From the NCBI GenBank assembly GCA_012728415.1, contig JAAYFD010000022.1:55459-119458 (forward strand): a DNA stretch of 64,000 nt, written 5' to 3'. Below, one piece after another: positions 12,222-25,043 of this stretch. Position numbers and translations under genes: made by a program. Origin of the DNA: Gammaproteobacteria bacterium (lineage in GTDB: Bacteria; Pseudomonadota; Gammaproteobacteria; Pseudomonadales; Pseudomonadaceae). Every line of letters starts with the position of its first letter. Positions within the stretch are counted from its first letter, which is position 1. The notes beneath the pieces were generated by a model, which was not told where the DNA came from, made no database searches, and saw nothing but the letters and a program-made list of their open reading frames with translations.

Positions 12222-13895
12222 ATGAATGCGATTTTCTTGGCTCTTTTTGGCCTAACCGTCATGTTCCTGGGGTTCTTTTTTTATTCGCGCTTTATCGCTG
12301 ATAAAATTTACCAACTTGATCCTGACTTCGAAACGCCGGCACACACCATGCAAGATGGTGTGGATTACGTGCCCACCAACAAATTTGTCCTCTGGGGACA
12401 TCACTTTACCTCTGTAGCAGGTGCGGCCCCGATCGTCGGGCCAGCCATTGCCGTGATTTGGGGCTGGTTGCCGGCGCTGCTTTGGGTGGCCTTTGGTACG
12501 GTATTTTTTGCCGGTGTGCATGACATGGGTGCAGTCTGGGCCAGTGTGCGCAACAAGGCTAAATCCATGGGTGCATTGTCTGGTGATGTGGTTGGCAAGC
12601 GCGCCCGCTCCCTGTTTATGATCGTGATTTTCCTGGTGTTGTTGATGGTCAACGCGGTGTTTGGTGTAGTAATCGCCAACCTGCTGATTAATAACCCGGG
12701 CTCGGTTGTCCCGGTATGGGGTGCGATTGCTGTGGCCATGGTGATTGGCCAGGCTATTTACCGCTTCAAATGGAACTTGCCGCTGGTGTCCCTGGTGGGT
12801 GTCGTGGTGCTCTACATGCTGATCTGGATTGGACCGCAGGTGCCGATTGCATTGCCGGAGACCACTTTCGGCCTGTCTGCCAGTGCTACCTGGATCCTGC
12901 TGTTGTTTGCCTATGCCGCGGTAGCGTCTCTGCTACCGGTGTGGATGCTGTTACAGCCCCGTGACTACATCAATGGACTGCAGTTGTTTGTTGGCTTGGG
13001 TCTGCTGTACATTGCGGTGTTTGTGGCCGGCCCGACCGTGGTTGCGCCGATGATCAACCCGGATGTACCGGCTGGCACGCCTTCGCTGTTCCCGCTGCTG
13101 TTCGTGACCATCGCCTGTGGTGCGATTTCTGGTTTCCACGGTATTGTGGCCTCCGGAACCACATCCAAACAGCTGAACCGTGAGCCGGATGCCCGCCTGG
13201 TCGGTTATGGTGGTGCGCTGGGCGAGGGCACTCTGGCTTTGGCTGCGATCATTGCCGCCAGTGCAGGCTTTGCCACCTATGGTGAATGGAAAGAGGTTTA
13301 CTCCAGTTTTGGTGGCGGTGGCCTGAAGGCCTTTGTTGACGGTGGCGGTGCCATCCTGCATGCCGGTACCGGCATCAGTCCCGAGGTTTCGGCAACCATG
13401 CTGACAGTGATGGCTGCGCTGTTTGCAGGAACCACCATGGATACCGGTCTGCGCCTGCAGCGCTATATCTTCCAGGAGTGGGGCGAAATCTATAACCTGG
13501 GCTGGATGAAAAAGGCCGCGCCTGCCACTTTCCTGTCAGTGGGGAGCTGTCTGGCGCTGGCTTTTGGTGCCGGCGGTGCGTCCGGTAGCGGTGGGTTGCT
13601 GATCTGGCCGCTGTTCGGCACCACCAACCAGTTGATGGCCGGTTTGACCCTGTTGGTGATTGCCGTCATGTTGGTGCGCCGTAAAACCAATGCGATTTTT
13701 GTCATTGCGCCGATGGCGTTTATCCTGGTAATCGGTTTGTTGGCACTGGCCATCCAGATATATACCTTCTTTAGTCAGTCCAAGTGGTTCTTGTGCGGAC
13801 TGGCGATTGTGGTGCTGGTAGCCGGTGTGCTGGTGACGCTGGAATGCGCGGCAGTGTTGCGCAAAGAAAAGCAGGCGGCCGCAGCGACCGGTTAG
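12222..13895 (+). CDS. cstA: Carbon starvation protein A family transporter (CstA)
   Basis: 557 aa multi-TM; FETPAHTMQDGVDYVPTNKFVLWGHHFTSVAGAAPIVGPAIAVIWGWLPA is CstA signature. Confidence 0.95.
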   Translation: MNAIFLALFGLTVMFLGFFFYSRFIADKIYQLDPDFETPAHTMQDGVDYVPTNKFVLWGHHFTSVAGAAPIVGPAIAVIWGWLPALLWVAFGTVFFAGVHDMGAVWASVRNKAKSMGALSGDVVGKRARSLFMIVIFLVLLMVNAVFGVVIANLLINNPGSVVPVWGAIAVAMVIGQAIYRFKWNLPLVSLVGVVVLYMLIWIGPQVPIALPETTFGLSASATWILLLFAYAAVASLLPVWMLLQPRDYINGLQLFVGLGLLYIAVFVAGPTVVAPMINPDVPAGTPSLFPLLFVTIACGAISGFHGIVASGTTSKQLNREPDARLVGYGGALGEGTLALAAIIAASAGFATYGEWKEVYSSFGGGGLKAFVDGGGAILHAGTGISPEVSATMLTVMAALFAGTTMDTGLRLQRYIFQEWGEIYNLGWMKKAAPATFLSVGSCLALAFGAGGASGSGGLLIWPLFGTTNQLMAGLTLLVIAVMLVRRKTNAIFVIAPMAFILVIGLLALAIQIYTFFSQSKWFLCGLAIVVLVAGVLVTLECAAVLRKEKQAAAATG

Positions 13896-14260: not shown

Positions 14261-14476
14261 TGGCCTGTGTGATCAATTGCTTCATTCGAGCCAGGGTGCA
14301 GGGTCTTCAGTCAGCCATGACAGCGTGACAGAGAAACAACAACACAGCATTGACGCTTTTAAATATCGAAACTGGCCAGCCAGCAGGTCATTGATATGCA
14401 AGACGTCAGTGTGGTTGCGTGATGATGCGGCTGCGCCTGGTGCGTGGCTTTTTAACACTTTTGCTTCGGGGTGGCT

Positions 14477-15481
14477 ATGTTGAAGCTAGGGCAGCTGGTA
14501 CAAGAAAGGCGCGTGCTGTTTTGTGGCGGCAAGGGTGGTGTGGGCAAGACCACGCTGTCTTGCGCCATTGCAGTCAAGGCAGCGGCTGCAGGACGGCGCA
14601 CGCTGCTGGTATCGACCGATCCGGCCCACAGCCTGTCAGACGCCTTTGCCCGTCCTGTAGGCAACCGTGAGTTGTGCCTGGCAGAGAACCTGTTTGCCCT
14701 GGAGCTGGACCCGGATGCCGAAGTGGATGCCTATCTTGAACGGGTATTGTCACACATGCGGCGTTATGTAAACCCGGATCAGGTCAGCGAGCTGCGGCGG
14801 CAGCTGCAGCTATCCAGACAGTCACCCGGAGCGCAAGAGGCGGCTATTCTTGAGCGGTTGGCGCGCCTGCTCGATGACGGACTGGAGCAGTACGACCTGA
14901 TTGTCTTCGATACAGCGCCTACTGGTCATACCCTGCGCTTGTTGACTTTGCCGGAGGTCATGTCTGTATGGACCGAGGGGCTGCTTAAGCATAACAGGAA
15001 GGCCGAGCACCTGGGCTCGGTGCTGGAGCACTTGAGCCCCGGACGCAGCATCGACAGCCTGACGCAAGACCCGGCCAAGCATGCAGTGGAAGGGCTGGAT
15101 GATCGCCAGCAAAAATTGCTGAGTACCCTGCTGGAACGCCAGCGTCTGTTTCATCGCATGCGACATTTGTTGACAGACGCAGGAAAGACCGGTTTTTTGT
15201 TTGTGCTGACACCCGAACGCCTGCCAGTCATGGAGACCGAGCGGGCTGTCCGCGCCCTTGAAGAAGGCAAGATCGGTGTTGCCGGGTTGCTGGTCAACCG
15301 GGTGATGCCCGGGCAGGTCATGGATAACGAGTTCTGGCGCAGCCGCTTGCAGCAGCAGCAACAGTATCTTGCCGACATTGGGCAGCGTTTTGCCGGTTTG
15401 CCGCGACAGCATGTGGAGCTGCAGCAGCATGATATTCAGGGTCTGGAGGCATTGCAAGCACTGGCCCGGCAGCTGGTCTGA
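14477..15481 (+). CDS. ArsA/TRC40 (Get3)-family P-loop ATPase, single-domain
   Basis: CGGKGGVGKTTLSCAIAVKAAAAGRRTLLVSTDPAHSLSDAF; VFDTAPTGHTLRLLTLPE; possible GTG start at 14471. Confidence 0.88.
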   Translation: MLKLGQLVQERRVLFCGGKGGVGKTTLSCAIAVKAAAAGRRTLLVSTDPAHSLSDAFARPVGNRELCLAENLFALELDPDAEVDAYLERVLSHMRRYVNPDQVSELRRQLQLSRQSPGAQEAAILERLARLLDDGLEQYDLIVFDTAPTGHTLRLLTLPEVMSVWTEGLLKHNRKAEHLGSVLEHLSPGRSIDSLTQDPAKHAVEGLDDRQQKLLSTLLERQRLFHRMRHLLTDAGKTGFLFVLTPERLPVMETERAVRALEEGKIGVAGLLVNRVMPGQVMDNEFWRSRLQQQQQYLADIGQRFAGLPRQHVELQQHDIQGLEALQALARQLV

Positions 15482-19285: not shown

Positions 19286-19870
19286 ATGACCATCAAATAC
19301 GGCTGGGTTGCAGGGTTGTTTTTGCTGGGCTGTGCATCGGCACAGGCGGTTGAGTTTTATCGCTATGTGGATGCCAGCGGAGTGACCGTAATTTCCCGCC
19401 AGGGGGTGCCGTCCGATGTTATTGGCAATGGCTACGAGGTCATTAATGAGCATGGACGGGTTGTGCGGGTCGTTCCAAGAGCCTTGACCCCCGAGGAGCA
19501 TCGCCTGTTGCAAGAGGAAAGGCAGCAGGCTGAAATTGACCGGCAGCTGTTGCGCCTCTATCGTCAAGTGTCTGATGTGGAGCGGGCTGAAGAGCGCAAG
19601 CAGGCCGAAGTTGACAGCTTTATTGCTCTGGTGCGCCGAAATATCGAAGACATCAGGGAAGATAGGTCGGCGTTGCTGAAGCAGGCGGGCAACCATGAGC
19701 GGGCCGGCCGGGAAGTGCCGGCAGAATTGCTGGAAAAGATTGCCCAGCTGGAACAGAGAGAGCGCGGTTATCTTCAGGAAGTCGAACGCTATCAGCAAAT
19801 AAAGGTTGATATTGCGCAAGAGTTTGCGCTGGATAAAGAGCGTGTTGAGTTTCTGCTGAATTCGCGTTAA
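19286..19870 (+). CDS. DUF4124-domain secreted coiled-coil protein
   Basis: Signal peptide then VEFYRYVDASGVTVISRQGVP; C-terminal coiled coil. Confidence 0.65.
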   Translation: MTIKYGWVAGLFLLGCASAQAVEFYRYVDASGVTVISRQGVPSDVIGNGYEVINEHGRVVRVVPRALTPEEHRLLQEERQQAEIDRQLLRLYRQVSDVERAEERKQAEVDSFIALVRRNIEDIREDRSALLKQAGNHERAGREVPAELLEKIAQLEQRERGYLQEVERYQQIKVDIAQEFALDKERVEFLLNSR

Positions 19871-20143
19871 GCGCTAAAAAAAGCAGAAAAAATTGAGTCT
19901 GCGGATGAACTGCAGTACCCTTCCAGTCCTTTTTGATTAAAAAGGCGTCTTTCAAGCCGGAGCATTTCCGGACTTTTTGGGAGCATTGTTCCCATGTGAT
20001 TGGCCACAAAGGCAGACCTTCTGCCCGGCCGCTTTTGATTACCCTGTTGGTAATTGTCTTCCCTGCGGGGGATACCCAGTCGGGCAAGCTTTGTCGTGCC
20101 GTTTTTTTGGCGTTTATGCTTGCCATGGATATGGAGACTACCC

Positions 20144-21508
20144 ATGACTCAACTGATAAAAACAAAAACCTCAGATGAGGTTTTTACACGTAACACCAAA
20201 TTTACCGTTTACACCGAGCGGCAGCTCGACCGGATCGAGCCGCTGCAAAGTTTGACACCCGAGCAGCGTTTCGAGATGCGTGTGGTGGCCAATGTGCTGC
20301 CGTTCAGGGTCAATCAGTATGTGATTGACGAACTGATTGACTGGACCAATATTCCGGCTGATCCGATCTTTCAGCTTACTTTCCCCCAGCGTGGCATGCT
20401 TGCGCCGGAAGACTACGACCGCATGGCTGATGTGCTGCAGCGTGAGGCAGAGCGTAGCGAAGTCCAGGCGGTTGCCAATGAAATCCGTGAAAAGCTCAAT
20501 CCGCACCCTGCGGGCCAGCAGGAAATGAATGTGCCCATGCTTGACGGCGAACCTCTGCCCGGCATGCAGCACAAATATCGTGAGACTGTGCTGTTTTTCC
20601 CCAGCCAGGGCCAGGTGTGTCATACATACTGTACGTTCTGTTTCCGCTGGGCACAGTTTATTGGTGACAAGGAGCTGCGCTTTGCCAGCAACGAGGCTGA
20701 CACGCTGCATCGCTATCTGGCCAAACATAAGGAAGTGAGCGACCTGCTATTGACGGGGGGGGATCCCATGGTGATGAAAACCCATCACCTGAAAGGTTAC
20801 CTGGATGGTCTGATGCGTCCGGAGCTGGATCATGTCCAGAATATCCGCATTGGTACCAAGTCCCTGACGTTCTGGCCACAGCGTTTTGTGACTGATCCGG
20901 ACGCTGATGAGCTGCTCAAGTTGCTGCGCCGGCTGGTAAGGGGCGGCAAGCATGTGGCATTGATGGCGCACTTCAATCATTGGCGTGAAATGGAAACGCC
21001 GATCGTACGTGAGGCGATCAGGCGCATTCAGGCAACAGGTGCCATTATTCGTGCCCAGGCGCCTGTGGTGCAGCACATTAATGATGATCCTGATGTTTGG
21101 GCCCGCATGTGGCGTACCCAGGTCGGACTGGGTATTGTGCCGTATTACATGTTCGTTGAGCGTGATACGGGTGCCAAGCGTTATTTTGAAGTGCCGCTGG
21201 AGCGCACATATAAAATTTATCGTGAGGCCATTCAGCAGGTGTCTGGTCTGGCGCGTACCGCCCGGGGGCCATCCATGAGTGCGGGCCCTGGCAAGGTGGA
21301 AATTCAGGGTATTACCGAGCTTAATGGCGAGAAAGTATTTGTCCTGCGCTTTATTCAGGGCCGCAACCCGGACTGGGTCCAGCGCATTTTCTTTGCCAAG
21401 TACGATCCTGAGGCTACCTGGTTCGATGATCTGGTACCGGCGTTTGGTGAGGAAAAATTCTTCTTCACGGACGAGTATAATGCTATGCAGGAGCAGGCTG
21501 GCGCCTGA
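20144..21508 (+). CDS. KamA-family radical SAM aminomutase-like protein (substrate uncertain)
   Basis: CHTYCTFC (CxxxCxxC), DLLLTGGDPMVM, conserved Lys in AGPGKVEIQG; ATG at 20144 with GGAG RBS. Confidence 0.85.
   Translation: MTQLIKTKTSDEVFTRNTKFTVYTERQLDRIEPLQSLTPEQRFEMRVVANVLPFRVNQYVIDELIDWTNIPADPIFQLTFPQRGMLAPEDYDRMADVLQREAERSEVQAVANEIREKLNPHPAGQQEMNVPMLDGEPLPGMQHKYRETVLFFPSQGQVCHTYCTFCFRWAQFIGDKELRFASNEADTLHRYLAKHKEVSDLLLTGGDPMVMKTHHLKGYLDGLMRPELDHVQNIRIGTKSLTFWPQRFVTDPDADELLKLLRRLVRGGKHVALMAHFNHWREMETPIVREAIRRIQATGAIIRAQAPVVQHINDDPDVWARMWRTQVGLGIVPYYMFVERDTGAKRYFEVPLERTYKIYREAIQQVSGLARTARGPSMSAGPGKVEIQGITELNGEKVFVLRFIQGRNPDWVQRIFFAKYDPEATWFDDLVPAFGEEKFFFTDEYNAMQEQAGA

Positions 21509-21592: not shown

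Positions 21593-25043
<3,451 letters not shown>

Follow-up and report, generated by a model that had tools for sequence, protein, structure and literature searches.

The window, by which we mean the entire analyzed stretch of 64,000 nucleotides, contains an intact open reading frame on the forward strand that encodes a KamA-type radical SAM/PLP protein (Table 1). The longest mechanically called frame of this gene reaches upstream to a TTG at position 20054; we placed the start at the ATG at 20144 because orthologs (e.g., L032) start at the equivalent position. The gene is located between the gene of a DUF4124 protein and argB, within the pyrE...argB...radC region of a Pseudomonadaceae chromosome, and the nearest named relative of its product stems from Thiopseudomonas denitrificans (92% identity). 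A scan for promoters and terminators around the gene yielded a number of sites no higher than in shuffled sequence, and by its position the gene looks like a single-gene unit. Elsewhere in the window, a gene for an ArsA-type anion-transporting ATPase is found downstream of a cstA-type carbon starvation gene. The genome of the host (Thiopseudomonas) is ~90% complete, and absences reported for it are for this reason provisional.

Table 1. Coordinates of the genes and residues discussed in the text, numbered from the first nucleotide of the window.
Feature	Position	Strand	Remark
Gene of the putative KamA-type radical SAM/PLP 2,3-aminomutase (P0001, Arg-type branch)	20144..21508	+	454 aa
CX3CX2C motif C159-C166 (CHTYCTFC), [4Fe-4S]/SAM site	20618..20641	+	cysteines invariant
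R168, equivalent of LAM R134	20645..20647	+	column kept in superfamily rows except three
R340, position of LAM Asp293	21161..21163	+	90/90 orthologs; alignment
D341, invariant in the window family; Pro in the next Arg-type group	21164..21166	+	ortholog and superfamily alignments
S377, position of LAM Asp330; Val in most actinobacterial cluster members	21272..21274	+	alignments
K384, equivalent of the PLP-binding Lys337 of LAM, in AGPGK	21293..21295	+	invariant
DUF4124 protein gene	19286-19870	+	
argB	21593-22597	-	
cstA-type carbon starvation gene	12222-13895		
ArsA-type anion-transporting ATPase gene	14471-15481		

A previous sequence-only reading had described the product as KamA-like on the basis of a radical SAM motif (CHTYCTFC) and a PLP-lysine context (AGPGK), and both features were recovered: The radical SAM cysteines are C159, C163, and C166, the PLP-binding lysine is K384, and this combination of an invariant CX3CX2C motif with an invariant lysine in a C-terminal glycine-rich loop places the protein in the KamA superfamily. 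Its scores against the curated models all fall below the respective cut-offs, with 141.9 bits against 199.2 for the KamA family (TIGR00238), to which it is homologous while lying outside this curated subfamily model, 119 against 396 for the AblA-like model, 118.1 against 525.4 for lysine 2,3-aminomutase (LAM; KamA/AblA; TIGR03820), 95.3 against 369.3 for EpmB (TIGR03821), 90.7 against 650 for glutamate 2,3-aminomutase (Eam; TIGR04368), and 89 against 600 for arginine 2,3-aminomutase. The other KamA protein of the host, encoded on contig C40, is a true EpmB, as its 451.1 bits exceed the cut-off of TIGR03821. The sole solved sequence relative of the window protein is LAM from Clostridium subterminale (2a5h), to which it is 24% identical over 260 aligned positions. 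An AlphaFold model computed with 35 orthologs as input (pLDDT 85.6, pTM 0.87) has the LAM fold: 2a5h is its top Foldseek match (E 7.2e-17, TM 0.60/0.66), with an E-value roughly twelve orders of magnitude better than those of the other matches. Given the weak scores on the curated models and LAM as the best structural match, the window protein has the KamA fold but belongs to none of the named families.

We then turned to the substrate pocket. LAM binds its lysine substrate by means of two aspartates, which in the known glutamate 2,3-aminomutases are replaced by lysine and asparagine, an exchange associated with glutamate binding (PMC3965090). Between the PYY motif and the PLP-lysine, LAM (PYYIYQCD...VVDAPGGGGK) and the window protein (PYYMFVERD...PSMSAGPGK) are of equal length and can be aligned without gaps, so that D293 falls on R340 and D330 on S377; the numbering of the two lysine-binding residues follows the sequence-only reading. 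That reading had claimed the loss of both aspartates and had left their counterparts as VERD/R and S/M. The alignment settles these as R340 and S377, and a restoration of both aspartates, which would have spoken against the claim, does not emerge from it. Because R340 and the adjacent D341 are identical in all 90 orthologs, neither chance nor a sequencing slip accounts for the exchange at the Asp293 site; among the 89 orthologs with a residue in the S377 column, 86 have Ser and 3 have Val. In a 75-row alignment, the 293 column contains Asp in every LAM, AblA-like, and EpmB row, host EpmB included, and Arg in the window family, the rhizobial-type groups, and a Paenibacillus protein. Beyond this site, the window protein shares with LAM the fold, the three cysteines, and the equivalents of Y113 (Y145), R134 (R168), Q258 (Q305), and Lys337 (K384), and it differs by Lys144 in place of Arg112 and Thr148 in place of Arg116. 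By analogy with the LAM structure, R168 is the presumed anchor of the substrate carboxylate.

Where TIGR03820 calls for Asp293 and Asp330, the window protein has R340 and S377. With EpmB it shares the superfamily fold and the catalytic residues, whereas EpmB carries Asp at the 293 site and, in most rows, Glu at the 330 site. The likeness to Eam consists in the replacement of both aspartates, with a base at the first site and a small polar residue at the second; however, Eam has Lys and Asn where the window protein has Arg and Ser, similar in charge and not identical, and the two show no sign of being closer than members of one superfamily. The Arg/Ser change is likely independent of the Lys/Asn change, and should both groups act on glutamate, this specificity probably arose on two occasions, since the residues differ and the scores show no closeness.

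In the tree, the Arg-type proteins form one clade (support 100/93) beside a small Met-type group, and a 100/99 split parts the Arg-type side from the LAM, AblA-like, and EpmB proteins. Members of the Met-type sister group (L138, L139) carry Met at the Asp293 site (QCMP). About 100 orthologs with 50-92% identity are distributed over six phyla: Those in Gamma- and Betaproteobacteria, Binatota, Bacteroidota, Ignavibacteriota, and Gemmatimonadota are 53-92% identical to the window protein, those in Actinomycetota 50-54%. An ortholog of at least 55% identity is present in 12 of 399 genomes of an even sample of Pseudomonadota, and in the host's family 6 of the 37 genomes examined carry one, all in two small-genome genera. 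A record titled Nitrosomonas europaea ATCC 25978 (L036) contains a gene 82% identical to that of the window and may be mislabelled or contaminated, because other Nitrosomonas records reach only 66-69%. Sister groups in the tree are the rhizobial and alphaproteobacterial "lysine 2,3-aminomutases" (L134-L137, L144, L145), which likewise have Arg at the 293 site but are 27-35% identical and have Pro for D341. The proteins encoded on plasmids of Rhizobium etli (L144) and Sinorhizobium meliloti (L145), a second Arg-type group, are shorter and have ATP-grasp (biotin-carboxylase-like) genes nearby; the gene in L144 also lies near nif genes. Taken together, the Arg-type KamA proteins constitute a widespread branch that is named lysine 2,3-aminomutase in databases, probably wrongly for the branch as a whole.

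In most genomes there is no consistent partner gene beside the KamA ortholog, which is solitary, and its neighbors are pyrE/argB in Pseudomonadaceae, pilin- or secretion-type genes in Nitrosomonas, and an IF-2B family gene in Ignavibacteria and Bacteroidota. Since such neighbors mostly reflect lineage-specific synteny, we set gene neighborhood aside as a direct guide to function and regarded only the members of biosynthetic clusters as informative; for Actinomycetota, gene context was read from plasmid records only.

The clearest product logic is found on a Streptomyces plasmid (L121, L147, L148), which encodes an ortholog 50% identical to the window protein with the same R340 and D341. This ortholog, which scores 85.4 bits on TIGR04368 (cut-off 650), is part of a type I PKS cluster together with a proline-iminopeptidase-family hydrolase, a carrier protein, an ACP malonyltransferase-type enzyme, and two adenylating enzymes, and it is adjoined by a class-I PLP enzyme of 425 aa (L121). 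The hydrolase is of the VinJ type, and the cluster can be matched gene by gene to the Vin set. One of the adenylating enzymes has 5jjq, 7dq5/6m01, and 5jjp as its best solved relatives and shows 63% identity with 5jjq over the aligned portion; these structures represent CmiS6, HitB, and IdnL1, respectively, from β-amino-acid macrolactam pathways. Gene sets of this type start β-amino-acid macrolactams (PMC11284099, PMC10662134). In incednine biosynthesis, the radical SAM enzyme IdnL4 likely converts L-Glu into β-glutamate, and disruption of its gene shows that 3-aminobutyrate formation depends on it, although the expected activity was not observed in vitro; β-glutamate is decarboxylated by the PLP enzyme IdnL3, and IdnL1 activates the product (PMC11284099). 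Moreover, the pretilactam cluster, which has the same neighbors and protein sizes around KamA as L121, contains plmJ (419 aa, "PLP-dependent aminotransferase") beside plmK (450 aa, "L-lysine 2,3-aminomutase"), which was reassigned to glutamate (PMC6631532). By analogy, the L121 gene set may correspond to IdnL4, IdnL3, and IdnL1, the trio that leads from glutamate via β-glutamate to 3-aminobutyrate, in which case its PLP enzyme would be the counterpart of IdnL3. The IdnL4/PlmK-type enzymes of 3-aminobutyrate macrolactam clusters and the L121 ortholog share gene set, protein size, and public naming, and from gene content, size, and annotation rather than from sequence we infer that IdnL4 may belong to the Arg-type clade. 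The window gene differs from these clusters in that it has no decarboxylase, adenylating enzyme, or PKS neighbor.

Class-I-type PLP enzymes also adjoin the KamA gene in Halioglobus sp. (L093) and a gammaproteobacterium (L099), and in Binatota an enzyme of the same fold is encoded ~3 kb away; these proteins have the fold of the L121 PLP enzyme and are 32-34% identical to it, and the one adjoining KamA in Amycolatopsis (L119) is 50% identical. A decarboxylase-like PLP enzyme of the L099 type occurs in 4 of 12 genomes with KamA and in 3 of 387 genomes without it (Fisher p 1.6e-5); three of the four KamA-positive carriers belong to one genus, the counts at the genus level are 2/9 vs 3/204 (p 0.015), and the co-occurrence is suggestive only. 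The neighborhood of this enzyme in Marinobacter-like and other genomes contained nothing informative, and no protein close to it is encoded in the Thiopseudomonas genomes. At four loci (L063, L085, L093, L099), an acyl-CoA ligase of one cluster is encoded within about 1 kb of the KamA ortholog; in L093 and L099, this ligase scores above the cut-off of TIGR03098 (exosortase-A associated), and the decarboxylase-like PLP enzyme also lies beside KamA. Perhaps a β-amino acid is attached to a surface polysaccharide at these loci; as the TIGR03098 ligase is only ~25% identical to β-aminoacyl-ACP synthetases, a β-amino acid substrate of this ligase is a lead and not a result. On the Rhodococcus plasmid pDK3 (L116, 4999-19967), a KamA ortholog is accompanied by a cupin, a lysine/ornithine N-hydroxylase, a stand-alone MetRS-like protein, a saccharopine-dehydrogenase-like protein, and a carrier protein, a set that resembles nitrogen-nitrogen bond forming pathways. 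Orthologs are also found in or beside NRPS clusters in L118 (873-11275) and on a Streptomyces cellulosae plasmid with a complete dpgABCD set (L120, 1-11353), whose products are possibly β-amino acid containing peptides.

The sequence-only reading had reported neither an ablB-like nor an efp gene next to KamA, which holds: The host genome lacks ablB and carries efp on another contig. No ablB above the cut-off was found in 15 carrier genomes, which makes the AblA/AblB route to N-acetyl-β-lysine unlikely there. Because the charge at the Asp293 site is invariantly reversed, the clade is separate, and ablB is lacking, lysine is an unlikely substrate of the window enzyme, and the earlier suspicion to this effect is well supported. 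The accompanying suggestion that glutamate is one possible substrate gains in weight without being fully borne out, so that the overall interpretation stands in part: As the known glutamate enzymes carry a base at this site and an ortholog belongs to an IdnL4/IdnL3/IdnL1-type gene set, glutamate is now the leading hypothesis, and the likeliest reaction of the Arg-type branch is, with a fair degree of probability, the conversion of L-glutamate to β-glutamate (3-aminoglutarate).

By homology to LAM, the [4Fe-4S] cluster at C159, C163, and C166 would cleave SAM to yield the 5'-deoxyadenosyl radical, and the amino acid would be held as an external aldimine on the PLP released from K384, with its α-carboxylate on R168. 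Hydrogen abstraction at C3 would be followed by movement of the amino group from C2 to C3; the catalyzed chemistry would, by analogy, be a 2,3-amino shift. R340 would pair with the γ-carboxylate of glutamate, taking the place of Asp293 and its interaction with the ε-ammonium group of lysine. In actinomycetes, the product would feed a β-glutamate decarboxylase and a β-aminoacyl-ACP synthetase; in Thiopseudomonas, where the gene stands alone, β-glutamate might serve as a solute or as a building block. Several points tell against glutamate, besides the failure to observe IdnL4 activity in vitro and the lack of a close decarboxylase-like homolog in Thiopseudomonas: D341, located next to R340, could neutralize its charge, the protein reaches 91 of 650 bits on the glutamate model and has Arg/Ser where that family has Lys/Asn, and the members in the Rhodococcus N-hydroxylase cluster and the Streptomyces Dpg cluster may use other substrates.

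The variety of these clusters, with nitrogen-nitrogen bond type genes (L116), Dpg/NRPS genes (L120), and NRPS genes (L118), would also fit an Arg-type 2,3-aminomutase whose substrate is another amino acid, one bearing a carboxylate, an amide, or only a short side chain (2-aminoadipate, glutamine, aspartate, alanine), and whose product is a different β-amino acid. R340 disfavors an ammonium side chain and leaves the chain length unfixed, and S377 is exchanged for Val in cluster members. We nevertheless regard this as doubtful, since the identity of R340 and D341 across six phyla suggests one substrate and the one cluster whose product logic can be read, that of the macrolactam, points to glutamate. 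That the public records, which call the orthologs lysine 2,3-aminomutase, are right and the protein is an ordinary LAM that binds lysine differently is very improbable: LAM is indeed its best solved relative, but both lysine-binding aspartates are lost with an invariant charge reversal, the LAM model gives 118 of 525 bits, and none of the 15 carrier genomes has an ablB above the cut-off. Least probable of all is an enzyme whose target is not a free amino acid but a residue of a protein or carrier, EF-P in the case of EpmB, for although the superfamily includes such an enzyme and the gene is solitary in most genomes, a true EpmB is encoded elsewhere in the host genome, R168 as the presumed carboxylate anchor is kept (as it is in EpmB rows), and the macrolactam orthologs need a free β-amino acid.

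β-Glutamate serves methanogens as a compatible solute and is known from a few bacteria; for methanogens, early NMR work spoke against its formation by an aminomutase (PMC1224877). With regard to the osmolyte role raised by the sequence-only reading, the gene occurs in halophiles (Halomonas, Marinobacter) and also in strains of other habitats, so that salt can be no more than one factor, and the actinomycete orthologs serve biosynthetic clusters. It is conceivable, if somewhat less than probable, that glutamate activity arose a second time, on a deep KamA branch with Arg instead of Lys at the side-chain site, and that this branch makes β-glutamate in many ordinary Gram-negatives (Thiopseudomonas, Marinobacter, Halomonas, Nitrosomonas, Bacteroidota), with use as a building block in some lineages, in connection with exosortase-type genes for surface polysaccharides as well as with macrolactams. 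Should the glutamate assignment be true, β-glutamate production would no longer be confined to methanogens and a few bacteria but would include many Gram-negative groups, and the superfamily would show two separate solutions for the same substrate change at one active-site position.
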